Shown piece after piece: positions 251 through 32,561 of a stretch of DNA of 39,377 bases. Origin of the DNA: Acetofilamentum sp. (GTDB lineage Bacteria; CAIWAD01); contig DYSB01000007.1 in the NCBI GenBank assembly GCA_020726405.1, forward strand, positions 1 to 39,377, read 5' to 3'. The translations under genes and the position numbers were made by a program. Positions within the stretch are counted from its first letter, which is position 1, and the number at the start of each line of letters is the position of its first letter. Under the pieces are notes generated by a model. That model did no database searches, was not told where the DNA came from, and saw only the letters and a list, made by a program, of their open reading frames with translations.

Positions 251-2578
251 ATGAGCCAGTTCGAGGGGATGGAGGACATTCTTAAGGAATTCCTCGTTGA
301 GAGTTACGAGAACCTGGACCGACTGGATCAGGAATTCGTGATCCTGGAAGAGGATCCAAGCAATCGGGAGACTCTCGCCAGCATCTTCCGGACCATCCAC
401 ACCATCAAGGGGACCAGCGGATTCTTTGGCTTGGGACGGCTGGGAAAGCTGGCGCACGCCGGCGAGAATCTGCTGAGCCTGCTGCGGGACGGCAAGCGTC
501 CCCTGACTCCCGAGGTCACCACGTCCCTGCTCAGTCTGGTGGACGCGGTGCGCCGGTTGTTGCGCAACATCGAGGACACCCAGGCCGAGGGCGAAGCCGA
601 CCACAGCGGGTTGATCGCCGAATTGGCGCGCCTGACCGATGCCAGTGCGGCTGCTGCACCGGAAACGCCGACTTCCGTCGCCATTCCGGTGGTGATGGAA
701 GAGGCCCCGCTGGCTCCCGAAGAACAGGGGCCGGTTCCCAGCATGGGCCAGTTGCTGGTCAGCGAGGGGCTGGTGCGCGAGGAGCAGGTGGAACAAGCCC
801 TGCAGCAGCAGGTGGACGGCGATCCGCGGCATCTGGGAGAAATCCTGGTGGGAAAGGGCTCGCTGCAGCCCGCTGCCGTGAAGAATGTCTTGAACAAGCA
901 GGCCGAGCAGGGCCAGGCCCGGGAAGGCGGGATCGCCGACAGCACGCTGCGCGTGGAGGTGGCCAACCTGGACCGCCTGATGAACCTGGCCGGCGAACTG
1001 GTGCTGGTCCGCAACCAGCTGCTGCAGTTCGCCACCCGCATCGACGACGCGACCTTCAATCCCATCCTGCAACGCCTCAACATCATCACCACCGAGTTGC
1101 AGGAAGGGGTGATGAAGACGCGCATGCAGCCCATCGGCAACCTCTGGAACAAGTTTCCGCGCATCGTGCGCGACTTGGCCATGGCCTGCAACAAGCAGGT
1201 GCGGCTGGAGATGGAAGGCAAGGACACGGAGCTGGACAAGACCCTGCTCGAGGCGATCAAGGATCCGCTGACCCACATCGTGCGCAACTCGGTGGACCAT
1301 GGCGTCGAGGATCCGGCCACCCGCCTGGCCGCCGGCAAGCCGGAGGAAGGTGTGATCCACCTGCGGGCCTTCCATGAAGGCGGCCAGGTGAACATCGAAA
1401 TCCGCGACGACGGCGCGGGCATCGACGCCGGGGCCATCCGCCGCAAGGCCGTGGAACGCCGCTTGGTGACTGCCGAAGCCGCCGAGGAGATGAGCGACCG
1501 CGAAATGATCAACATGATCTTCCTGCCCGGCTTCAGCACGGCCCGCCAGGTGACCAATGTCTCCGGGCGCGGCGTGGGCATGGACGTGGTGAAGACCAAC
1601 ATCCGCCGCATCGGCGGCATCGTGGACATGCAGAGCGAGCCGGGCCAGGGTTCGGTGCTCAAGATCAAGATCCCCCTGACCCTGGCGATCATTCCGGCCC
1701 TGGTGGTGAAGGTCGAGGGCGAGCGCTTCGCCGTGCCGCAGGTCAGCCTGCTGGAGTTGGTGCGGCTGGAGGGCGACCATGCCCGCCAGGGCATCGAGAT
1801 GATCCACGGTGCGCCGGTCTACCGCCTGCGCGGCCGCCTGCTGCCGTTGGTGAATCTGCGCGACCAGCTGGGCTACCCGGCCGCCGACGACGCGGGCAAG
1901 GTCAACATCGTCGTGCTGCAGGCGGATGGCCGGCCCTTCGGTCTGATCGTCGACGAGATCACGGACACCGAGGAGATCGTGGTCAAGCCGCTCTGGAGCC
2001 AGCTCAAGCAGATCCGCATCTTCGCCGGCGCCACCATCATGGGTGACGGCTCCGTGGCCCTGATCCTCGACGTCCTGGGATTGGCCCAGCAGAGTCACGT
2101 GATCGAGGAGAACCGCCAGGATCGCCTGCGCGAGTATGCCAACACGCAGGAGGAGAGCCAGGGCGATCGCGAAACCCTGCTGCTCTTCCGGGTGGGCGAC
2201 AATCACATGGCCGTGCCGCTGGATCAGGTGGACCGCCTGGAGGAGCTGCCCTGGGACCGCGTGGAGCGGACGGGCGACCAGGAGGTCGTGCAGTACCGCG
2301 GGCGGATCCTTCCCCTGGTGCGGCCGGAAACGCACTTGCAGGAACGGCGCAGCGAGCGGCGCGGCGCCGCCGACCAGCCGGCCCAGCTCCAGGTGGTGGT
2401 CTACAGCCACGAGGGAGCCAGCTACGGCCTGGTGGTGGACGGGATCGAGGACATCGCCCACGAAGCGGTCGCCGTGCGCCGGGAGGCGACCCGCGAGGGT
2501 GTGCTGGGCGTGATCGTGGTCAACGAGCGGATCACGGAGATGCTGGATCTGCAGCGATTGGCCCGTCTGGTCGGGTGA
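251..2578 (+). CDS. cheA: Chemotaxis histidine kinase CheA with an MshEN-like domain
   Basis: This cytoplasmic histidine kinase receives receptor signals through CheW and phosphorylates CheY and CheB. From the ATG at 251 the protein is 775 residues. In order there is an HPt domain with the phospho-accepting His50 in HTIKG, and a linker. A region at about 165-219 has two half-repeats of the form LGxxLVxxG...ALxxQ, as in MshEN/GspE N-terminal domains. The dimerisation helices begin near 232. The ATP-binding domain has an N box (His342, Asn346) and a DDGAGID box (386-392). Two CheW-like domains follow, from about 483 and about 643. Most CheA proteins have one CheW domain and a P2 domain where the MshEN-like part sits here. 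The gene heads an eight-gene chemosensory run. Identity is secure; the MshEN assignment rests on the visible repeat pattern. Confidence 0.96.
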   Translation: MSQFEGMEDILKEFLVESYENLDRLDQEFVILEEDPSNRETLASIFRTIHTIKGTSGFFGLGRLGKLAHAGENLLSLLRDGKRPLTPEVTTSLLSLVDAVRRLLRNIEDTQAEGEADHSGLIAELARLTDASAAAAPETPTSVAIPVVMEEAPLAPEEQGPVPSMGQLLVSEGLVREEQVEQALQQQVDGDPRHLGEILVGKGSLQPAAVKNVLNKQAEQGQAREGGIADSTLRVEVANLDRLMNLAGELVLVRNQLLQFATRIDDATFNPILQRLNIITTELQEGVMKTRMQPIGNLWNKFPRIVRDLAMACNKQVRLEMEGKDTELDKTLLEAIKDPLTHIVRNSVDHGVEDPATRLAAGKPEEGVIHLRAFHEGGQVNIEIRDDGAGIDAGAIRRKAVERRLVTAEAAEEMSDREMINMIFLPGFSTARQVTNVSGRGVGMDVVKTNIRRIGGIVDMQSEPGQGSVLKIKIPLTLAIIPALVVKVEGERFAVPQVSLLELVRLEGDHARQGIEMIHGAPVYRLRGRLLPLVNLRDQLGYPAADDAGKVNIVVLQADGRPFGLIVDEITDTEEIVVKPLWSQLKQIRIFAGATIMGDGSVALILDVLGLAQQSHVIEENRQDRLREYANTQEESQGDRETLLLFRVGDNHMAVPLDQVDRLEELPWDRVERTGDQEVVQYRGRILPLVRPETHLQERRSERRGAADQPAQLQVVVYSHEGASYGLVVDGIEDIAHEAVAVRREATREGVLGVIVVNERITEMLDLQRLARLVG

Positions 2579-2619: not shown

Positions 2620-2976
2620 ATGAGAATTCTCGTTGTGGATGACTCGACCACCATGCGGCGCATCATCAGCAACAGTCTGCGCGCGGTGGGCTACGAGGAC
2701 ATCGTGGAGGCGGGGGACGGCCAGCAGGCTCTGGAGACACTGGAAGGCGTGTCCATGATGCTCACGGACTGGAACATGCCCAACATGGACGGGCTGACCC
2801 TGGTCAAGACCGTGCGCGCCAATCCCGCCCTGGCCGGCATGCCCATCATCATGGTGACCTCGGAAGGCGCCCGGGACGAAGTCATGGAGGCCCTGGCCGC
2901 CGGGGTCAACGATTACATCGTGAAGCCGTTCACCAAGGATGTCCTGGCCGAGAAGGTCAAGGGAATGTTGAAGTAA
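2620..2976 (+). CDS. cheY: Single-domain response regulator, CheY type
   Basis: This 118-residue receiver domain has no output domain, so it should act by binding a partner such as a motor switch protein once phosphorylated by CheA. The acidic pair Asp7-Asp8, phospho-acceptor Asp50 (in LTDWNMPNMDG), Thr80 and Lys102 are all in the expected places. A GGGAGG site lies about ten bases before the ATG. It sits 41 bases after cheA and 11 before cheX, which encodes a likely phosphatase for it. A second CheY follows at 3918. Which one drives the output cannot be told from sequence. Confidence 0.95.
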   Translation: MRILVVDDSTTMRRIISNSLRAVGYEDIVEAGDGQQALETLEGVSMMLTDWNMPNMDGLTLVKTVRANPALAGMPIIMVTSEGARDEVMEALAAGVNDYIVKPFTKDVLAEKVKGMLK

Positions 2977-2987
2977 AGGGACCGAGC

Positions 2988-3455
2988 ATGGACGCTAAAT
3001 ACATCAATCCCTTCGTGGTCGCCATGGTGAACTCGCTGGAGACGATGCTTAACATCACTCCCGAGCGGGGCACGCCCTACCTCAAGCGCGAGGGCCAGAC
3101 CCAGGGCGACATCTCCGCGATCATCGGCTTCGCCGGGGCCAGCGTGACGGGTTCCGTTGCCCTCAGTCTGCCCACTCCGGTGGCACTCAAGTTCTACAGC
3201 CTGATGATGGGTGAAAAGGTCTACCGCATCACCAACGATGTCCAGGACACAGTGGGCGAGCTGGCCAACATCATCGCCGGCGGCGCCAAGACCGAGTTGT
3301 CCAAGGAAGGCATCACGTTCAATATTTCCATTCCCACGGTGGTGGTGGGTCCCGGGCACACGATCTCGCATCGGAACGACGTCCCCGTGATGGTCATCCC
3401 CTTCGAGATCGGCAAGCATCGCTTCGTGTTGGAAGTCACCATGAAGCTGGAGTAG
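2988..3455 (+). CDS. cheX: CheX-family chemotaxis phosphatase
   Basis: The 155-residue protein matches the CheC/CheX/FliY phosphatase family, which removes phosphate from CheY. Near the middle it carries one copy of the family motif, an acidic residue followed by N-I-x-x-G-x-x-K (GELANIIAGGAKTEL). A single motif copy and a length near 155 favour CheX over the two-motif CheC. The N-terminal part (NPFVVAMVNSLETMLNI) is also typical of CheX. It lies between cheY and cheW, four bases before cheW. No CheZ or CheD is visible in the window, so this is the likely route of signal termination. Confidence 0.9.
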   Translation: MDAKYINPFVVAMVNSLETMLNITPERGTPYLKREGQTQGDISAIIGFAGASVTGSVALSLPTPVALKFYSLMMGEKVYRITNDVQDTVGELANIIAGGAKTELSKEGITFNISIPTVVVGPGHTISHRNDVPVMVIPFEIGKHRFVLEVTMKLE

Positions 3456-3459
3456 CACC

Positions 3460-3921
3460 ATGGCCGAGCAACAGCAGTACTGCACGTTCTTCCTGAACAG
3501 CCTCTTCCTGGGGGTCGATGTCCGCCTGGTCCAGGAGGTGATCCGCTCCCAACATCTCACCCGCGTGCCCTTGGCCACGCGTGAGATCAGCGGGCTGATC
3601 AACCTGCGCGGCCAGATCGTCACCGCCATCGACCTGCGGCGCCGACTGAACCTGCCGGACCGGCCGGTTGGACAGGCCCCGATGAACGTCGTCGTGCGCA
3701 ACGAGGACAGCATCCACAGCCTGCTGGTGGATCTGGTGGGGGACGTGGTGACCGTGGAGGACAGCACCTTTGAGAAACCACCGGACACCCTGGATCCTGC
3801 CCTGCGCGGGCTGATCACGGGCACCCACAAGCTGCAGGATCGCCTGCTGCTGGTCCTGGACGTCAAGCAAGCCGTCCAGCTGGACCACGCCGGCGCCACG
3901 CTGCGGGATCCCGTCGCATGA
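3460..3921 (+). CDS. cheW: Chemotaxis coupling protein CheW
   Basis: This 153-residue single CheW domain bridges receptors and CheA. The SH3-like fold signature is visible in LGVDVRLVQEVIRS and in the ISGLINLRGQIVTAIDLR segment, which is the best conserved part of the family. The ATG comes four bases after the cheX stop, with GGAG inside the end of cheX serving as ribosome-binding site. The stop overlaps the next gene by four bases (ATGA), so the two are translationally coupled. CheA here already has two CheW-like domains, so this copy is the free adaptor. Confidence 0.94.
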   Translation: MAEQQQYCTFFLNSLFLGVDVRLVQEVIRSQHLTRVPLATREISGLINLRGQIVTAIDLRRRLNLPDRPVGQAPMNVVVRNEDSIHSLLVDLVGDVVTVEDSTFEKPPDTLDPALRGLITGTHKLQDRLLLVLDVKQAVQLDHAGATLRDPVA

Positions 3922-4292
3922 AAGCGCTCATCATCGACGACTCCTCCTCCATGCGCATGTTGTTGGGCCGCATCCTGGACGATTTGGGCGTGCAGCACGC
4001 CCAGGCCGGCGACGGTCGCGAGGCCTTGCAGGTCTTGGAGAACGACGGTCCCTTCGACTTCGCCCTGGTGGACTGGCAGATGCCCGTGATGGACGGCCTC
4101 GAGTTTGTGCGCGCCGTGCGCGAACACCTGCCCCGCGAGGCCATCCAACTGGTGATGGTCACCTCGGTCAACCAGATCGAATCCATCGTGGAGGCCCTGG
4201 GGGCTGGGGCGGACGAGTACATCATGAAGCCCTTCACCAAGGATGCCCTGCAGGAGAAACTGGCCCTCCTAGGGATCGAGCTGGGGCCATGA
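3918..4292 (+). CDS. Second single-domain response regulator, CheY type
   Basis: A 124-residue receiver domain without an output domain. Asp7-Asp8, phospho-acceptor Asp52 (in LVDWQMPVMDG), Thr82 and Lys104 are present, so it should be phosphorylatable. It overlaps cheW by four bases upstream and cheB by four bases downstream, so it is embedded in the operon. It differs clearly from the first CheY at 2620, so this is not a recent tandem duplication. In other systems a second CheY can act as a phosphate sink or address another output; that is inference here. Confidence 0.93.
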   Translation: MKALIIDDSSSMRMLLGRILDDLGVQHAQAGDGREALQVLENDGPFDFALVDWQMPVMDGLEFVRAVREHLPREAIQLVMVTSVNQIESIVEALGAGADEYIMKPFTKDALQEKLALLGIELGP

Positions 4293-5533
4293 GGGGAATC
4301 CGCATCCTGGTCGTGGACGATTCCGCGGTGGTGCGCCGTCTGTTGACGCGGATCATCGAGGAGGAGCCGGGTCTGGAAGTGGCCGGCCAGGCGTCCAACG
4401 GCAGACTGGCCCTGGACATGCTGGATCAGGTCGAGCCGGATCTGGTGACCCTGGACGTGGAAATGCCCGTGATGGACGGCTTGGCCACGCTGGCCGAGCT
4501 GCGCCGGCGCCTGCCCCGCCTGCCCGTGATCATGTTCTCCACGCTCACCAGCCGGGGCGCGGCCACCACCATTGAGGCCCTCAGCGCCGGCGCCAGCGAC
4601 TATCTGACCAAGCCCGAGGGCGCGGCCAACCTGCAGGAGAGCCTGGAACGCCTGCGCGCCGATCTGGTGCCGCGCGTCCGGGCCCTGGCCCGGATCCGGC
4701 CCGCCCAGCCCGTCCACACCGTCAAGGAAACCGCGATGTCCACCTCCCCCCAGCCGCGCCTGACGACGGAACCCTTCCCGCGCACGTCCTCGGCCCTGAC
4801 GCGGGAGGCGCGACCCGGGCTCGGGCGGAGCGCCCCCCGGACTCCGGCGGCGGTCCGGCCGATCCCGCGCATGCCGCAGCCCAGCGTGATTCCGGCGGCG
4901 GGACCGACCCGCCACCTGGCGCGTCCGGCGGAACTGCTGGTGGTGGGTGTCTCCACCGGCGGCCCCAACGCCCTGGCCCGCGTGATGCCCCTGTTTCCCG
5001 CCACCCTTTCCGTTCCCGTGCTCATCGTGCAGCACATGCCCCCGCTGTTCACCCGCATGCTGGCGGATCGCCTGGACCAGCTCAGCCCCCTGACGGTGCG
5101 TGAAGCCCGCAACGGTTCCGCGCTCCTGCCGGGCGAGGCCTGGCTGGCCCAGGGGGACTGGCACATGGAAGTGGCGCGGGAGGGCGGCCGCCTGGTGTTG
5201 CGCGAGCATCAGGGTCCGCAGGTGAATTCCTGCCGGCCGGCCGTGGACGTGCTGTTCGATTCCGCCGTGCGCTGCTGCGGCGGGGCCGTGCTGGCCATGG
5301 TGCTGACGGGGATGGGTCAGGACGGGATGAAGGGCGCGCGCGCCATCCGCGAGGCCGGCGGGCTGGTGCTGGCCCAGGACGAGGAGAGTTCCGTGGTCTG
5401 GGGAATGCCCGGGGCCGTGGCCATGGCCGGCCTGGCCGACGCCGTGCTGCCCCTGGACGGGCTGGTGCCGCACGCCCTGCAGCTGCTGACCAGCATGCGC
5501 CCCTTCGGCGGAAGGAGCAGCGCATGCCGCTGA
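4289..5533 (+). CDS. cheB: Protein-glutamate methylesterase/deamidase CheB
   Basis: CheB demethylates or deamidates receptor glutamates and opposes CheR in adaptation. The 414-residue protein has an N-terminal receiver domain (phospho-acceptor Asp56 in TLDVEMPVMDG). A proline- and arginine-rich linker of about 70 residues follows, at roughly 145-215. The C-terminal esterase domain has the catalytic triad Ser222 (STGGP), His249 (QHMPP) and Asp345 (GMGQDG). It overlaps the preceding CheY gene by four bases and cheR by ten. The linker is longer than in enteric CheB. No unusual residues were seen in the active site. Confidence 0.96.
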   Translation: MRGIRILVVDDSAVVRRLLTRIIEEEPGLEVAGQASNGRLALDMLDQVEPDLVTLDVEMPVMDGLATLAELRRRLPRLPVIMFSTLTSRGAATTIEALSAGASDYLTKPEGAANLQESLERLRADLVPRVRALARIRPAQPVHTVKETAMSTSPQPRLTTEPFPRTSSALTREARPGLGRSAPRTPAAVRPIPRMPQPSVIPAAGPTRHLARPAELLVVGVSTGGPNALARVMPLFPATLSVPVLIVQHMPPLFTRMLADRLDQLSPLTVREARNGSALLPGEAWLAQGDWHMEVAREGGRLVLREHQGPQVNSCRPAVDVLFDSAVRCCGGAVLAMVLTGMGQDGMKGARAIREAGGLVLAQDEESSVVWGMPGAVAMAGLADAVLPLDGLVPHALQLLTSMRPFGGRSSACR

Positions 5534-6354
5534 ACCGGATCGAGTTCGACTACCTGCGCAACCTGGTGCGCGAGCGCTCGGCCATCGTACTGGACGACTC
5601 CAAGGAGTACCTGGTGGAAATGCGCCTGATGAGCCTGGCGCGCTTGGAGGGCTACGACTCCGTGGACGAGCTCTCGCGCAACCTGCGCGGCAAGCCCTAC
5701 GGCGCGCTGCACGCCCAGGTGGTGGACGCCATGACCACCAACGAGACCTCCTTCTTCCGCGACCTGCATCCCTTCGAGACCTTCAAGCGCGAACTGGTGC
5801 CCGAGATCCTCAAGCGCAACGAGGCCAGCCGCACGATCAACATCTGGTGCGCGGCCTGTTCCAGCGGACAGGAACCCTACACGCTGGCCATGCTGCTTCA
5901 CGACGGGTTTCCACAGCTGCGCAGCGGTTGGCGCGTCAACCTGTTGGGCGGCGACCTCTCCCAGGAGATGCTGCGGCGGGCCCGGCAGGGTCTGTTCAGC
6001 CAGCTGGAAGTCAACCGCGGGCTGCCCGCGCCCCTCCTGGTGAAGTACTTTCAGAAAGACGGGGCCTCCTGGCAGGTGAAGGAGGAGGTTCGCGCCATGA
6101 TCCAGTTCCACGAACTGAATCTGGCCGGCGCCTGGCCCCACCTGCCGTCGATGGATTTCGTGTTTCTGCGCAACGTGCTCATCTACTTCGACATCGAGAT
6201 GAAGCGGCAGATCCTGCGCAAGGTGCGCGGCGTGTTGAAGCCCGACGGCCTGCTATTCCTGGGCGGTGCGGAGACCACGCTGAACATCGACGAGAGCTGG
6301 GAGCGCGTCCAATCGGGCAAGACCGTGTACTACCGAATTCGACGGGATGCATGA
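5524..6354 (+). CDS. cheR: Chemotaxis protein methyltransferase CheR
   Basis: CheR methylates receptor glutamates using S-adenosylmethionine. The 276-residue protein has the N-terminal helical domain, then the methyltransferase fold with NIWCAACSSGQEPYTLAML as the SAM-binding loop. MTTNETSFFRD, FVFLRNVLIYFD and FLGGAETTLN are the other family blocks. It has no C-terminal TPR or receptor-tether extension. It overlaps the end of cheB by ten bases and the PilZ gene by four. With CheB next door, this operon has a full methylation-based adaptation pair although no receptor gene is in the window. Confidence 0.96.
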   Translation: MPLNRIEFDYLRNLVRERSAIVLDDSKEYLVEMRLMSLARLEGYDSVDELSRNLRGKPYGALHAQVVDAMTTNETSFFRDLHPFETFKRELVPEILKRNEASRTINIWCAACSSGQEPYTLAMLLHDGFPQLRSGWRVNLLGGDLSQEMLRRARQGLFSQLEVNRGLPAPLLVKYFQKDGASWQVKEEVRAMIQFHELNLAGAWPHLPSMDFVFLRNVLIYFDIEMKRQILRKVRGVLKPDGLLFLGGAETTLNIDESWERVQSGKTVYYRIRRDA

Positions 6355-6737
6355 TGACCACAGAACGCAGAGAGTTCGTGCGTGTGCCCCTGCACGTGGA
6401 CGTGCAGCTCAAGGGCAGCGGGGAACTGGTGCTGGCCACCAGCACTCAGGATCTCAGCTTGCGCGGGGTGCGGATCGATCATGTGGAACAGCTCACGCCC
6501 GGCGAGGAATGCGAGCTGAGTCTCGTGCTGGGCAGCGGCAGCGAGGCCATCCACGTGGAGATCATCGGTCGCGTGGTGCGCATCTCGGCAGAGTCCATGG
6601 GACTGGAGTTCCTGGGAATCCGGGGTGTGGAGTCCTTGGACCATCTGCGCCGGCTGGTGCTCTACAACGCGCCCGACGCCGGGCTGGTGGAGGCGGAGTT
6701 CCGCGAGCATCGCGGACTGAAGAAGCGCGAGGAGTAG
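6351..6737 (+). CDS. PilZ-domain protein, probable c-di-GMP receptor
   Basis: A 128-residue stand-alone PilZ domain. Both cyclic-di-GMP binding motifs are present: RxxxR (Arg7 to Arg11 in RREFVR) and DxSxxG (Asp34, Ser36, Gly39 in DLSLRG). Such proteins change motility or polysaccharide output when they bind c-di-GMP. There are two adjacent ATGs, at 6351 and 6354; the first overlaps the cheR stop and is used here. It closes the chemosensory operon, so the coupled reading is that c-di-GMP status and chemosensory signalling are coordinated. The direct target is unknown. Confidence 0.9.
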   Translation: MMTTERREFVRVPLHVDVQLKGSGELVLATSTQDLSLRGVRIDHVEQLTPGEECELSLVLGSGSEAIHVEIIGRVVRISAESMGLEFLGIRGVESLDHLRRLVLYNAPDAGLVEAEFREHRGLKKREE

Positions 6738-6851: not shown

Positions 6852-8840
6852 ATGTCCCTCTCCCTTGACCAGATGCGGCTGGCCGCCGCTTTTGCGCGCG
6901 GCCTGGCGCTGGATTCCATCGCCACCTGCAAGTCGGGCCACCTGGGTCTGCCCCTGGGCGCAGCCGAGATCGGTGCCGCGCTGTTCGGCTCCGTGCTGCG
7001 CGTGGATCCGGAACAGCCGCGCTGGCTGAATCGCGACCGCTTCGTGCTCTCCGCCGGGCACGGCAGCATGTTTCTCTACGCCTGGCTCCATCTGGCCGGC
7101 TTCGAGCTCTCCCTGGAAGACCTGCGGGACTTCCGCAAGCTGGGCAGCCGCACGCCCGGGCATCCGGAATTCGGCCACACGCCGGGAGTGGAGATCACCA
7201 GCGGCCCGCTGGGGCAGGGCGTGGCCAACGCCGTGGGCCTGGCCCTTTCGCGCCACAAGGCCGCGGCGCGCTGGAACACGGCGGCACATTCCCTGCTCGA
7301 CTGGCACGTCTTCTGTCTGGCCGGTGATGGCTGTTTGCAGGAGGGCGTGACCCTCGAGGCCACCGAACTGGCCGGCCACCTGGGCCTCAACCATCTCACG
7401 CTGATCTGGGATGCCAACTCGGTGACCCTGGACGCGCCCGCCGCCGTCACCCAGAGCCAAAACGTGCGAGCCCGCTACGAGGCCTGCGGCTGGAGCGTGG
7501 TGGACGTGGACGGCCACGACCCGGTGGAACTGGTGCGTGTGCTGGCAGCCAGCCGCGAGGCGGAGCGGCCCGTGATGGTGATCGCCCGCACCCAGATCGC
7601 CCGGGGTGTGCCCGAAGTGGCTGGCACGCCCAAGGGCCACGGCGAATCCGGCGCGGCATACCGCGACCAGGCCCGCCAGGGGCTGGGTCTGCCGGCCGCT
7701 GGCTTCCAGGTGCCGGCGGAGCTGCGCGCCGCCTTCCAGGCCCACCGCAGCGACCAGCAGCAGGCGGCCGCCGCCTGGGAGCAGCGCCGCCAGGCCTGGG
7801 CCGCCGCTGAACCGGCCCGTGCGGCAGAGCTGGCGCACGTAGTCGCCGGTGTCACCCCAGCCCTGCCGGCCTGCCCGGACTTCGATCCCGCGGCCAGCCT
7901 GGCCACTCGCAAGGCCGGCGAGATCTGCCTGCAGCATCTGGCGGCGGCGGAGCCGCGGCTGGTCTCGCTCAGCGCGGACTTGTTCGGCTCCAATCTCAAC
8001 TACATCGCCGGCGGCGGCGATATCCTGCCCGGGGAGTTTGCGGGACGCAACTTGCGGGCCGGCATCCGCGAGCACGCCATGGGCGCGCTGCTCAACGGCC
8101 TGGCCTACGACGGCCTGTTCCGGCCCTTGGGCGCCACGTTCCTGGTATTCTCCGACTACCTGCGGCCCAGCCTGCGGCTCTCCGCCCTGGCCGGGCTGCC
8201 GGTGATCTGGTGGTTCACGCACGACTCCGTGGGCGTGGGCGAGGACGGCCCCACCCATCAGCCCGTGGAACAGATTGCCTCCCTGCGCCTGATCCCAGGA
8301 CTGGAACTCTTCCGTCCGGCGGACCCGGAGGAAACGGCCGCCGCGCTGGAGGAGGCCCTGGCCCGCCAGGATGGCCCGACAGTGCTGGCCCTGAGCCGCC
8401 AAGCGCTGCCCATGCTGCCCGGCAGCGTGGCGGAGCGCCGGGCCGGCACCCGTCGCGGCGGCTACGTGGCGCTGCGCGAGGAGTCCGCCCTGGAGCTGAT
8501 CCTGCTGGCCACGGGCAGCGAGGTGCAGTGGGCTCTGGCCGCGGCGCGGATCTTGGCCGCCGAGGGCCGGGGCGTGCGCGTGCTCTCCCTGCCCTGCGTC
8601 GAACGCTTCGCCGCCCAGGACGCCCACTGGCGCGACCACGTACTGCCGCCCGCTTGCCGCCGTCGCCTGGCCGTGGAGGCGGGGTCCGGCGCCGGCTGGC
8701 ATCGCTGGACGGGGCTGGACGGCCGCGTGCTCTCCATCGAACGCTTCGGTCTGAGCGCGCCGGCCGATCAGGTGATGACCACCCTGGGAATGAGCACGGA
8801 GGCCGTGCTGGCCGCCGCCCAGAAATTGCTGGAGAGCTGA
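6852..8840 (+). CDS. tkt: Transketolase
   Basis: Transketolase moves two-carbon units between sugar phosphates in the pentose phosphate pathway, using thiamine diphosphate and a divalent metal. The 662-residue protein is of usual full length. It shows the N-terminal KSGHLGLPLGAAEI block, the GPLGQGVANAVG segment, and the GDGCLQEG motif that begins the cofactor-binding site. The pyrimidine domain follows (REHAMGALLNGLAYDG, then DSVGVGEDGPTHQPVEQ), then the C-terminal domain. Its ATG has GGAAG about five bases upstream and lies 114 bases after the PilZ gene. A TACTTTCG element at 6815-6822 could be a weak -10 box but has no good -35. The stop codon overlaps the start of the next gene by one base. 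Confidence 0.96.
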   Translation: MSLSLDQMRLAAAFARGLALDSIATCKSGHLGLPLGAAEIGAALFGSVLRVDPEQPRWLNRDRFVLSAGHGSMFLYAWLHLAGFELSLEDLRDFRKLGSRTPGHPEFGHTPGVEITSGPLGQGVANAVGLALSRHKAAARWNTAAHSLLDWHVFCLAGDGCLQEGVTLEATELAGHLGLNHLTLIWDANSVTLDAPAAVTQSQNVRARYEACGWSVVDVDGHDPVELVRVLAASREAERPVMVIARTQIARGVPEVAGTPKGHGESGAAYRDQARQGLGLPAAGFQVPAELRAAFQAHRSDQQQAAAAWEQRRQAWAAAEPARAAELAHVVAGVTPALPACPDFDPAASLATRKAGEICLQHLAAAEPRLVSLSADLFGSNLNYIAGGGDILPGEFAGRNLRAGIREHAMGALLNGLAYDGLFRPLGATFLVFSDYLRPSLRLSALAGLPVIWWFTHDSVGVGEDGPTHQPVEQIASLRLIPGLELFRPADPEETAAALEEALARQDGPTVLALSRQALPMLPGSVAERRAGTRRGGYVALREESALELILLATGSEVQWALAAARILAAEGRGVRVLSLPCVERFAAQDAHWRDHVLPPACRRRLAVEAGSGAGWHRWTGLDGRVLSIERFGLSAPADQVMTTLGMSTEAVLAAAQKLLES

Positions 8841-9865
8841 TGCGCCGCTGGTTTGCCTGCTGGGGCCTGCTACTGCTGGTATCCCTGGCCGCGGCCCAGG
8901 ACACCCTGCGCGTCCTCTTCGTGGGCAACAGCCACACCTACACCAATTCGCTGCCCAGCCTGCTGCGTCAGCTGGCCACGGGCGGCGGGCACGTGCTGGA
9001 GACGGGCATGAGCGCGCCCGGCGGCTTCACGCTGCGCCAGCACGTCACCCACACCGCCACCGTGAGCGCCATCCAGCAGGGGGACTGGGATTGGGTGGCC
9101 CTGCAGGAGCAGTCCCAGGTGCCGGTGATTCCCTACTGGCGCGCCACCTGGATGCTCCCCGCCGCCCTCAGCCTGGACAGCCTGATCCGCCTGCACGACG
9201 AGCGCACGCTGCTCTTCATGACCTGGGGCTGGCGGGACGGCGGCCGGCAATGCATCCTGGATTCCTGCGCCGAGTTCCGCGACTTCCAGCACATGCAAGA
9301 CAGCATGTCCAGCAGCTACCGGCGCCTGGCCGTCCTGCTGGACTGCCCTATGGTGCCCGCCGGGGAGGTGTTCAGCCGCGTGCTGGCGGGCGACCCCTTT
9401 GCCGAACTCTGGAACGCGGACGGCTACCACCCCTCGCTGGAGGGCAGCTATCTGGCAGCCTGCGCGTTCTACATCCAGTTGTACGACGAAAGCCCGGTGG
9501 GCCTGCCGCATCCCGTAGAGATTCCCGTCGAGCGTGCCCGCTGGCTGCAGGAGCAGGTGGCCGACGAACTGCGCGGACCCGGGCCGCCCGGCCGAGTCCC
9601 GCGCCTGGATCTGCTGGAGGGTTGGCCCAACCCCTTCAATCCCGCGCTTAGCATCCGCTGCGAACTGGGCGCGCCGGCCCGGGCCCGGCTGGAACTGCAC
9701 AACCTGCTGGGCCAGCGCGTGGCCCTGTTGCAGGATGGTCCCCTGCCCGCGGGCCGACACCTCTTCCATTGGCAAGCGGCTGGCGCGGCCAGCGGCATCT
9801 ACCTACTGCGCCTCAGTCTGGACGATCGCCCGGCCCTGACCCGTAAGCTGACCCTTCAGCGCTGA
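8840..9865 (+). CDS. Secreted SGNH/DUF4886-like hydrolase with C-terminal sorting domain
   Basis: The 341-residue protein has a signal peptide (about residues 1-19, ending SLAAAQ). An SGNH-hydrolase-like domain follows, with Ser31 in VLFVGNSHT and an Asp194-x-x-His197 pair in ADGYHPS, the usual catalytic set for esterases of this fold. This arrangement resembles DUF4886. The last 80 residues begin at WPNPFNP (from 262) and form a beta-rich domain ending GIYLLRLSLD...LTLQR, as in type IX secretion or FlgD-like C-terminal domains. Its ATG overlaps the transketolase stop by one base, although the two products act in different compartments. The substrate is unknown; a deacetylase or esterase acting on polysaccharide is one possibility. 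Confidence 0.82.
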   Translation: MRRWFACWGLLLLVSLAAAQDTLRVLFVGNSHTYTNSLPSLLRQLATGGGHVLETGMSAPGGFTLRQHVTHTATVSAIQQGDWDWVALQEQSQVPVIPYWRATWMLPAALSLDSLIRLHDERTLLFMTWGWRDGGRQCILDSCAEFRDFQHMQDSMSSSYRRLAVLLDCPMVPAGEVFSRVLAGDPFAELWNADGYHPSLEGSYLAACAFYIQLYDESPVGLPHPVEIPVERARWLQEQVADELRGPGPPGRVPRLDLLEGWPNPFNPALSIRCELGAPARARLELHNLLGQRVALLQDGPLPAGRHLFHWQAAGAASGIYLLRLSLDDRPALTRKLTLQR

Positions 9866-29498: not shown

Positions 29499-32400
29499 AT
29501 GCACGCATTTCGTACTGCCGGACGGCTGAACGGGAGGTCCGCGACTTCACCGGCTGACGGCGCTTACCGAATTCTCCACCCTGCCCCGGCGCGACCACGT
29601 GCCGCGTGGCAGGGTTTCTGGTTGCTGGCGGGCCTGCTCTGGCTGGTCACGGTGGCCGGGGCCCAGACCGTCATGCCCGACACTCTGCGCCCGACCACGG
29701 GCCATGCCTTCCGGCTGTCGGATTTCGACGGGCCCTTCTGGTTCAACCAGCGCTCCGTCGTGCTGCCCGGCGACACTCTGTTCGCCGGCCCGGGTGACTC
29801 GCTGCTCTTCAAGGCCGACACCCTGGGCCTGGGCTCCCTGATGATCCAGGGCACGCTGATCGTCGAGGGCAATCAGGACAGCCTGGTGGTCTTCACGGGC
29901 CAATCCTACAGCCAGTTCAGCTGGCCGGGCATTCTGTTCCGCCAGCTGGCCGGGGACTCCACCACCTCCCTCATCCACTACGCCCACCTGAATGGCGCCA
30001 ACACCACAATCAACACCAACAAGGTGGCGGCCTGGGGCCAGCCCTATTCCCTCGTCGTCCGGCGCAGCTTGTTTACGGACGGCAGTTTTGGCGCCGTGCT
30101 CTTCTCGCCCTCCTCTTCGCGTTTCGAGAACTGCGTGTTTGACGACCAGCGCAACGTGTCGGTCTATGCCTCCAACTGCCGGGCGGAAGTGGTCAACTGC
30201 GTGCTGATGCCCCACGAGGATTTCCCCAGCGCCAAGGCCATCAACTTCTACAATCCGCCGGCGGACCCGGCTTCGGTCGTCCATTACAACCTGTTCTATC
30301 CGGGCGTGGGCGAATGGTGGAGCGAGTTCCTGCTCTCCAACAACACGGGGGACTCGCAGTACACGTATCACCAGCTGGACTCCACCAACCTGGTGGCGGA
30401 CCCGCTCTTCCTGGCGGATCGGCCCTACCACCCGGATCCGGAAACTTCGCCCCTGGTGGATAGCGGCGACCCCACCCTCCTCGACCCGGACGAGACCGTC
30501 TCCGACATCGGCATTTGGTGGGTGCGCGGCATCGAGAGCCCCCTGCGCATTCTGAGCGCGCCCTCCCCTTCCACCTGGGTGAAGGGCTACAACTTCCTGG
30601 CCGTGTTTGACATCCAATCCTACCCGGCGCCCGACTGGAGCCTGGAAGGCGCCCCGGCGGGCATGCAAATCAGCACGCTGGGCCGGAGCTGGGCGGCGCT
30701 GAGCTGGCCGGTCAGCCAGCAGCAGCTGGGCGCCCACCACTTCTGGATCCACGGCCAGAACCTGGCCAACGAGATGGTCTACCACGACAGCCTGGAAGTC
30801 AACTTGCTGTTCCTGGAGAACCACGCGCCGCAGCTCAGCCTGGTCTCCCCTTGCGACGGCGGGGGCTGCCTGGGTCAGCGTGACGTGATCGTGGAAAACC
30901 TATCCACCGGCACGTCCACCGTGGTGCAGTTGCAAGTGGAGGACGAGGACGCCGCCTTGCTGGGGAGCCAGCAGATCTACCGGCTGAATGTCTGGCTCAA
31001 CGGCGTGGCGGAGCCCACGCTCTTCGTCAGTCAGCTCCAGCGCGAGTTCGTCCTGGACACCACGGCTCTGGTGCTGGATCTGCGCTTCTCCGACGGCGTG
31101 GCCTACGACAGCCTGCATTATGAAATCCACCCACGCTTCACGCTGCTCTCCGGCGACGTGTCGGGCGTGATCGGCACGGCCACCGGCCCTGTCTTCCTGA
31201 CCGGACCCCTGCGCGTGCCCGCCGGGCAGAGCCTGCGCGTGGAGGCCGGCAGCCTGCTGGTGGCCGGCGACTCGGACAGCGAGGTTTGGCTGCTGGACGT
31301 GGAGGGTGAGCTGCTGCTGGAAGGCAGCGCGGAGGCCCCGCTCATCTTCCGCTGCCTGGCGACCCAGCGTGCGGGCCTGGATCTGCGGCCGCCCTTCCTG
31401 CGTGTCCAGCAAGGCGGGCAGCTCAGTGGCCTGTCCCACGTGGAGTTCGAGGGCTTTTCCACCGCCGTGCAACTGGAGCACCTCGATCAGACGGAGCCCG
31501 TGCTGATCGACAGCTGCGCGTTCACGCGTGTGCGGCTGGGCATCCTGGCGGTCAACACGCCCGTGGACATCCGCCACAGCGTCTTCCATTCGCCCGCCGA
31601 CAGCCTGCAACTGGGCAGCTCGAGCATCTACCTGGCGGGCTCCGTGGGCAGCGTGATCCAGAACAACCTGTTCATCAATCCAATTGTCGGCGTGACCGCG
31701 GTGGACGCCGACGCCCGGATCTCCAACAACAGTTTCGTCTGGGTGAAGACGCGCAATCAGAACTGGACGCACTCCTGGCCTACCTATAGCCAGCTGGGAT
31801 TCGGGCGCGTCCACGCCTTCAACTCCACGCTGGAGATCCGCAATAACCTGTTCCAGTGGCGCGCCACGCACTTCGGCGACGTTCTCACCACCAATCAGTT
31901 AGAGGCCTACGCCGCCTCTCCCACGCACGCCATCTGGCTGGATGAGGCCAGCCGGGTGCGGGCCGAGTGGAACTGGTACGACTGTCGCAACGCCTGGCTG
32001 AACAGCGCGGAGGGCTATCAGAATCTTTCCTTCCAGACGGCCATCAACGACAGCACGCTCCTGCTCAGCCATATCCGGGCCGGGGCGGACAGCGCAGGCG
32101 TGGATGAGGCCAGCGGCTACCGGCTCTTCGCCGACAGCCCGCTGATCGACGCCGGCGATCCTTCCGGCCTGTGGAACGACGCCTTCGACGCCAGCCGCTG
32201 TGACATCGGCTGGACGGGCGGTCCGCTGGCGCTGGTGAGCGAGTACACGGCGGTCAGCGATCTGCACGGCGAGGAGCCCGGCATCACGCTGCTGCCCGGG
32301 AGCTTCCGCCTGAGGCCGGCCTATCCCAATCCCTTCAACCCCTTCTCGCGGCTGGAAGTGGAACTGGACCGGCCGGGCCTGCTGGACCTGCGGATCTACG

Positions 32401-32561
32401 ACCTGCTGGGTCGCCAGGTAGCCGTGCTGGTCCACGACCGGCTGGAACCGGGCGTCTACGGCCTGCAGGTGGACGGCTCCGGCTGGGCCAGCGGCTTCTA
32501 CGTAGCCCGGGCCCGCTTCCAGGGCGAACAGCAGAGTACGCGCCTGCTGTTGGTGAAGTAG
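29499..32561 (+). CDS. Large secreted protein with beta-helix features and C-terminal sorting domain
   Basis: A 1020-residue exported protein. The N-terminus has about 38 residues with many Arg before a hydrophobic core at 39-56 (ending VAGAQ), a longer signal peptide than usual. Two regions look like right-handed beta-helix: a first at about 100-320 (FENCVFDDQRNVSVYASNCR) and a second at about 600-830 (LIDSCAFTRVRLGI, VIQNNLFINP, ARISNNSFVW). An immunoglobulin-like stretch separates them. From residue 941 the AYPNPFNPFS motif begins a beta domain ending in LLLVK, as in type IX or FlgD-like C-terminal domains. Function may be adhesion or polysaccharide binding; no catalytic residues are clear. 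It is preceded by a 196-base spacer and followed by a strong terminator. Confidence 0.85.
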   Translation: MHAFRTAGRLNGRSATSPADGAYRILHPAPARPRAAWQGFWLLAGLLWLVTVAGAQTVMPDTLRPTTGHAFRLSDFDGPFWFNQRSVVLPGDTLFAGPGDSLLFKADTLGLGSLMIQGTLIVEGNQDSLVVFTGQSYSQFSWPGILFRQLAGDSTTSLIHYAHLNGANTTINTNKVAAWGQPYSLVVRRSLFTDGSFGAVLFSPSSSRFENCVFDDQRNVSVYASNCRAEVVNCVLMPHEDFPSAKAINFYNPPADPASVVHYNLFYPGVGEWWSEFLLSNNTGDSQYTYHQLDSTNLVADPLFLADRPYHPDPETSPLVDSGDPTLLDPDETVSDIGIWWVRGIESPLRILSAPSPSTWVKGYNFLAVFDIQSYPAPDWSLEGAPAGMQISTLGRSWAALSWPVSQQQLGAHHFWIHGQNLANEMVYHDSLEVNLLFLENHAPQLSLVSPCDGGGCLGQRDVIVENLSTGTSTVVQLQVEDEDAALLGSQQIYRLNVWLNGVAEPTLFVSQLQREFVLDTTALVLDLRFSDGVAYDSLHYEIHPRFTLLSGDVSGVIGTATGPVFLTGPLRVPAGQSLRVEAGSLLVAGDSDSEVWLLDVEGELLLEGSAEAPLIFRCLATQRAGLDLRPPFLRVQQGGQLSGLSHVEFEGFSTAVQLEHLDQTEPVLIDSCAFTRVRLGILAVNTPVDIRHSVFHSPADSLQLGSSSIYLAGSVGSVIQNNLFINPIVGVTAVDADARISNNSFVWVKTRNQNWTHSWPTYSQLGFGRVHAFNSTLEIRNNLFQWRATHFGDVLTTNQLEAYAASPTHAIWLDEASRVRAEWNWYDCRNAWLNSAEGYQNLSFQTAINDSTLLLSHIRAGADSAGVDEASGYRLFADSPLIDAGDPSGLWNDAFDASRCDIGWTGGPLALVSEYTAVSDLHGEEPGITLLPGSFRLRPAYPNPFNPFSRLEVELDRPGLLDLRIYDLLGRQVAVLVHDRLEPGVYGLQVDGSGWASGFYVARARFQGEQQSTRLLLVK

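Follow-up and report, generated by a model that had tools for sequence, protein, structure and literature searches.

Chemotaxis Operon and CheA Layout

The window, which is the whole analysed stretch of 39,377 nucleotides, contains a chemotaxis operon in the order cheA-cheY-cheX-cheW-cheY-cheB-cheR-pilZ with a transketolase gene behind it; this arrangement is kept in both sister species. The operon genes and the parts of the first gene are as follows.

251..2578, forward strand: cheA, 775 aa, ATG at 251; P1 (Hpt), linker, MshEN_N-like domain, P3, P4 and two CheW domains
641..742, forward strand: P1-to-domain linker of CheA (residues 131-164), low-complexity and fast-evolving; genus identity 29%, pLDDT <50 at residues 132-161
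743..904, forward strand: predicted MshEN_N-like domain of CheA (residues 165-218), from NF053729 above cut-off and a four-helix AlphaFold model
743..814, forward strand: half-motif I, SMGQLLVSEGLVREEQVEQALQQQ (residues 165-188), Ser for Arg at position 1, read from sequence
815..832, forward strand: six-residue spacer VDGDPR between the half-motifs
833..904, forward strand: half-motif II, HLGEILVGKGSLQPAAVKNVLNKQ (residues 195-218), His for Arg at position 1, read from sequence
2620..2976, forward strand: cheY1 (PF00072)
2988..3455, forward strand: cheX phosphatase (PF13690)
3460..3921, forward strand: cheW (PF01584)
3918..4292, forward strand: cheY2 (PF00072)
4289..5533, forward strand: cheB (PF01339 and PF00072)
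5524..6354, forward strand: cheR (PF01739)
6348..6737, forward strand: PilZ-domain protein gene (PF07238, 55 bits), with RxxxR (REFVR) and DxSxxG (DLSLRG) read in the translation

Pfam matches the Hpt (P1), H-kinase_dim (P3), HATPase_c (P4), and two CheW domains in CheA, and the phospho-site HTIKG and the ATP-binding boxes are seen directly in its sequence. With the Hpt, dimerisation, HATPase_c, and CheW domains all in place, the protein is a CheA histidine kinase. The first-pass annotation had located an MshEN-like domain between P1 and P3 at residues 165-219 (743-907), and both the position and the coordinates are right.

Identity and Predicted Fold of the Linker Domain

The NCBIfam model NF053729 (c-di-GMP_motif, MshE-related) matches CheA residues 165-217, scoring 41.0 bits when the whole protein is searched and 44.8 bits when the region alone is, above its curated cut-off of 38. 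Pfam gave no match to MshEN/T2SSE_N in CheA, and DUF4388 alone appeared as a sub-threshold fragment, so that the profile search proposed in the first-pass annotation succeeded with NCBIfam and failed with Pfam. The failure is plausibly due to the inclusion of MshEN_C in the Pfam model. This subdomain is absent from CheA, where only ~12 linker residues separate the helical bundle from P3, and the protein thus lacks a full MshEN (T2SSE_N) domain. In a phmmer search against the PDB, PilF 6f8l was found at 4e-8 and MshE 5htl at 8e-5. The two half-motifs share 7 of 24 identities, a score equalled in 1 of 100,000 shuffles.

The AlphaFold model of residues 155-225, built with an alignment of 16 CheA linker domains, has a mean pLDDT of 86 and consists of four helices. 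Its best PDB match is MshE with c-di-GMP (5htl; 0.9 A, TM 0.75 by query length, probability 1.00); next comes PilF GSPII-B with c-di-GMP bound. No P2 structure occurs among the Foldseek matches. The Foldseek E-values are weak, the best being 7e-3, as expected at such a short length. The model of full-length CheA is poor (pLDDT 62, pTM 0.28, shallow alignment) and served only to place the block 162-221 between low-confidence stretches at 132-161 and 221-241.

The structure prediction thus gave the four-helix MshEN_N-type fold and no P2 fold, and the MshEN-type domain and the two half-repeats of the first-pass annotation are borne out, the latter as 24-residue motifs. A chance resemblance, or a P2 domain misread as MshEN, would fit the missing Pfam match to MshEN/T2SSE_N, but the profile match and the fold comparison refute it, with the shuffle test and the retention of the domain in relatives also against it, and it is extremely improbable. 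Judged by sequence and predicted fold, the identity of residues 165-218 as a genuine MshEN_N-type domain is secure.

MshE and PilF: The CheA domain shares with MshEN_N of Vibrio cholerae MshE (5htl) the two 24-residue half-motifs, the four-helix fold at 0.9 A, both Gly-3, both Gln-24, and the hydrophobic pocket positions. In contrast, it has Ser and His for the position-1 Arg, Met for Leu10, Val for Leu25 and Leu54, a spacer of 6 instead of 5 residues, no MshEN_C, and a CheA instead of an ATPase as its host. PilF GSPII-B of Thermus thermophilus (8pfa, 9glg) has the same fold (1.5 A) and likewise lacks the position-1 arginine in both halves. However, its Lys and Leu at this position stack hydrophobically on guanine, whereas the Ser and His of CheA are smaller or polar.

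Relation to P2

Canonical CheA P2 occupies the same slot in the P1-x-P3 order, but it has an unrelated fold, docks CheY, and shows no sequence or fold likeness to the domain described here. No P2 or other CheY-binding domain was detected between P1 and P3 of this CheA by Pfam or by fold comparison. Most of the relatives fetched have neither P2 nor an MshEN-like domain in this region, just a low-complexity or disordered linker, and a same-family orthologue (L080) lacks the MshEN-like domain and has a disordered linker only. A 2023 census of CheA proteins (PMC10782961) reports that P2 is absent from more than half of CheAs. The view that the domain stands in place of P2 is therefore correct as to the absence of P2 and rejected as to replacement; the domain decorates a P2-less CheA and does not substitute for P2.

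Evolution Within the Genus and Beyond

In alignments within the genus, the domain is free of gaps and 54-74% identical, compared with 21-29% for the preceding linker and 83-85% for the core. When the window is compared with its genus relatives, the values are 54-56% for the gapless domain and 29% for the adjoining linker. All three species of the genus exceed the NF053729 cut-off, and the CheA domain of genome G002 scores highest among them, at 52 bits. The dN of the domain is below its dS, with dN/dS of 0.36/0.63 in the comparisons with the window versus 0.19/0.65 between the two sister species.

A quick tree was built from 69 CheA cores; it has several long branches and is unsure in its details. 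On it, the presence of the domain requires at least three changes on well-supported branches and seven in the most parsimonious count. Carriers of the domain in the clade of the window are the genus itself, a Planctomycetota MAG (L003), an Acidobacteria MAG (L011), and genome G250. Their spacers all contain DP, and all but that of G250 contain GDP. GDP is invariant in the five closest aligned CheA linker domains, and all five CheAs match NF053729 with E <= 0.001. An Acidobacteria locus (L015, Sulfotelmatobacter MAG) carries a decayed copy, DAADVLVQQG...PVAELAVEKAA, in which both binding glycines are lost; it is apparently an intermediate from a folded domain to a disordered linker.

Distribution and Spacing of CheA Linker Tandems

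The survey covered 386 genomes across the domain Bacteria, in 188 of which a CheA dimerisation domain scored over the cut-off. Tandems were searched with the domain of the window plus P3 as the query, followed by reading of the linkers. By hand tally, CheA-type proteins with MshEN-like tandems occur in at least 39 of the 188 CheA-bearing genomes, a lower bound because the weak matches were read only in part.

Among 43 CheA tandems, the spacer has one residue in 13, two in 7, three in 4, five in 1, six in 9, seven in 6, and more in 3. Among the 29 top-scoring MshEN hits, mostly of pilus- or secretion-ATPase size, it has five residues in 28 and seven in 1. The difference in five-residue spacers (1/43 versus 28/29) gives a Fisher p of ~1e-17, a value that overstates the strength since related sequences are not independent. 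A further caution is that the 29 comparators were the best matches to a model that itself has a spacer of 5. In a less selected set of 68 ATPase-sized hits, the spacer is five residues in 57 and lies within -1 to +2 of this length in all. R, K, or L occupies position 1 of both halves in 9 of the 43 CheA tandems versus 22 of the 29 comparators. By these sequence features, the CheA linker tandems form a variant class of MshEN-like domains.

A second CheA in a same-family genome (L082, G003:C40; 975 aa) has two tandem MshEN-like modules with four half-motifs at residues ~446-545 and extra Hpt-like regions, and a further locus (L124, G143) has more than two half-motifs.

The pairing of the two domains is not new. 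Wang et al. 2016 (PMC5013675) name CheA, CheX, and REC among the domains with which MshEN is associated; these CheA-MshEN proteins have the same domain pairing as here, and they are not described one by one in the main text. The architecture has accordingly been on record since 2016 as an uncharacterised kind. The 2023 census (PMC10782961) mentions neither MshEN nor c-di-GMP in its main text. In the literature searched, outside which most subscription papers lay, we found no report on the function of an MshEN domain in CheA and none of a CheA binding c-di-GMP.

Candidate c-di-GMP Site

Several features of c-di-GMP-binding motifs are retained. Glycine is present at position 3 (Gly167, Gly197) and glutamine at position 24 (Gln188, Gln218) of both halves, and the hydrophobic positions 2, 17, and 21 are kept as Met166, Val181, and Leu185 in motif I and Leu196, Val211, and Leu215 in motif II. 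In MshE, as described in the main text of the 2016 study (PMC5013675), G11L and G40I abolish ligand-induced stabilisation and mutation of each conserved hydrophobic residue has a more than tenfold effect, whereas changes of Arg9, Asp12, and Gln32 cause a loss of at most fivefold. The same text reports that isolated MshE residues 1-62, a 62-residue domain, bind at 0.35 uM.

Other features depart from the known binders. The degraded RLG motifs noted in the first-pass annotation are real: position 1 is Ser165 and His195, outside both the original Arg and the extended consensus of R, K, or L (PMC11731258), and the domain is thus not filed as a c-di-GMP-binding MshEN. Among the genus's three species, this position reads S/S/A in motif I and H/H/H in motif II. 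Position 17 is Val for Leu in both halves, and Ser is found at position 11 of motif II. The spacer VDGDPR has six residues in place of the five of MshE, and both sister species also have six, ending in GDPR; this length does not exclude membership in the fold, since 11 of the 68 ATPase-sized MshEN hits depart by 1-2 residues. The absence of MshEN_C and the deviation of the CheA linker tandems, as a class, from the binding geometry also count against binding.

In PilF, GSPII-B binds c-di-GMP at 6 nM without the arginine, and GSPII-A fails to bind it even though one of its motifs is nearly perfect (PMC11731258). The caution of the first-pass annotation that binding is not assured was right. Sensing of c-di-GMP by this kinase is possible from its sequence, and binding by the domain at a physiological level, as a prediction, is put at somewhat under an even chance.

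PilZ Gene and Genome Context

The operon does end in a PilZ gene, as had been noted, and its product has intact c-di-GMP motifs (RxxxR, DxSxxG). Its use as evidence for c-di-GMP binding by CheA is rejected, because the PilZ gene and the CheA domain occur independently. In genome G003, pilZ is retained next to a CheA orthologue that has no MshEN-like domain. Conversely, the che neighbourhoods read in the genomes of L003, L011, and G250 showed no recognisable PilZ gene, and the PilZ matches of these genomes appear to lie on other contigs. The independent occurrence also weakens the idea that PilZ docks on the CheA domain by analogy to PilB-PilZ (7lkm in the fold search). A second point against it is the location of the PilB residues mutated to probe binding of PilZ: they lie at 77-132, which we read as ND1, a region missing in CheA (PMC8389850).

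The genome encodes six GGDEF domains, two PilZ domains, and the flagellar export protein FlhA; the GGDEF domains and FlhA make c-di-GMP signalling and flagella likely. No T2SSE-type ATPase (PilB/PilT/GspE) was found in the 92%-complete assembly, and both sister species have such proteins; their absence reflects either an assembly gap or a loss of type IV pili. Elsewhere in the window, 8840-9865 (forward strand) encodes a protein with a DUF4886 match and a C-terminal segment of the NPFNP type that, judged by eye, looks like a secretion sorting domain, and 29499-32561 (forward strand) encodes a 1020-aa protein whose sole Pfam match is a right-handed beta-helix region and which is likely secreted or located at the surface.

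Proposed Role and Alternatives

The best explanation as a whole is a regulatory domain in a P2-less CheA with c-di-GMP as a candidate ligand, and we consider it about evenly balanced between right and wrong. The MshEN_N-type four-helix domain, a member of a recurrent and often lost family of CheA linker domains, is strung like a bead on flexible linkers, with P1 on one side and the P3-P4-P5 core on the other. Most likely, it would modulate the access of P1 to the kinase domain or the passage of phosphate to CheY. The leading candidate ligand, c-di-GMP, would be clamped between the two half-motifs and would alter the shape or contacts of the bead, which would couple the c-di-GMP level to the kinase output. 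The regulatory role is inferred, and a c-di-GMP mechanism in CheA is a fair hypothesis.

A degenerate MshEN_N domain could instead have lost c-di-GMP binding and serve protein docking, for example of CheY1, CheY2, or a CheA partner, as a P2-like scaffold with an unrelated fold. This is a serious alternative, to which we give perhaps one chance in three: the stacking arginines are often gone and the spacer is changed across the CheA class, the GDP of the spacer is kept beyond the genus, and the operon encodes two CheYs and a CheX. Moreover, Xanthomonas PilB and XpsE have MshEN-type domains that do not bind c-di-GMP in proteins that still work (PMC8389850; PMC5013675). However, the binding partners are candidates only, the PilB residues probed for PilZ contact lie in what we read as ND1, which is absent here, and the domain retains its hydrophobic pocket and its two glycines, which pure docking would not obviously require. 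It is unlikely that the domain is a vestigial folded spacer with little effect on signalling, drifting towards an ordinary disordered linker. Such drift would agree with the patchy distribution on the CheA tree, the decayed Sulfotelmatobacter copy, and the higher dN/dS in comparisons with the window, but in each of the genus's three species the domain has remained free of gaps, with a predicted fold and a score over the family cut-off; its dN is below dS, and the neighbouring linker is far more diverged.

Returning to the regulatory reading, it may extend beyond this genus. The CheA linker MshEN-like domains would then be a widespread, functionally distinct class with non-standard spacing that reads c-di-GMP or a related ligand directly, a proposal that we regard as doubtful. 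If it is true, a second messenger would be wired into the phosphorylation step and not into the motor or the receptors. If the domain of this CheA binds c-di-GMP, the chemotaxis kinase would itself be a c-di-GMP effector and would tie chemotaxis directly to the motile-to-sessile switch. Whether or not it binds c-di-GMP, about one-fifth of the sampled CheA-bearing genomes have such a domain.
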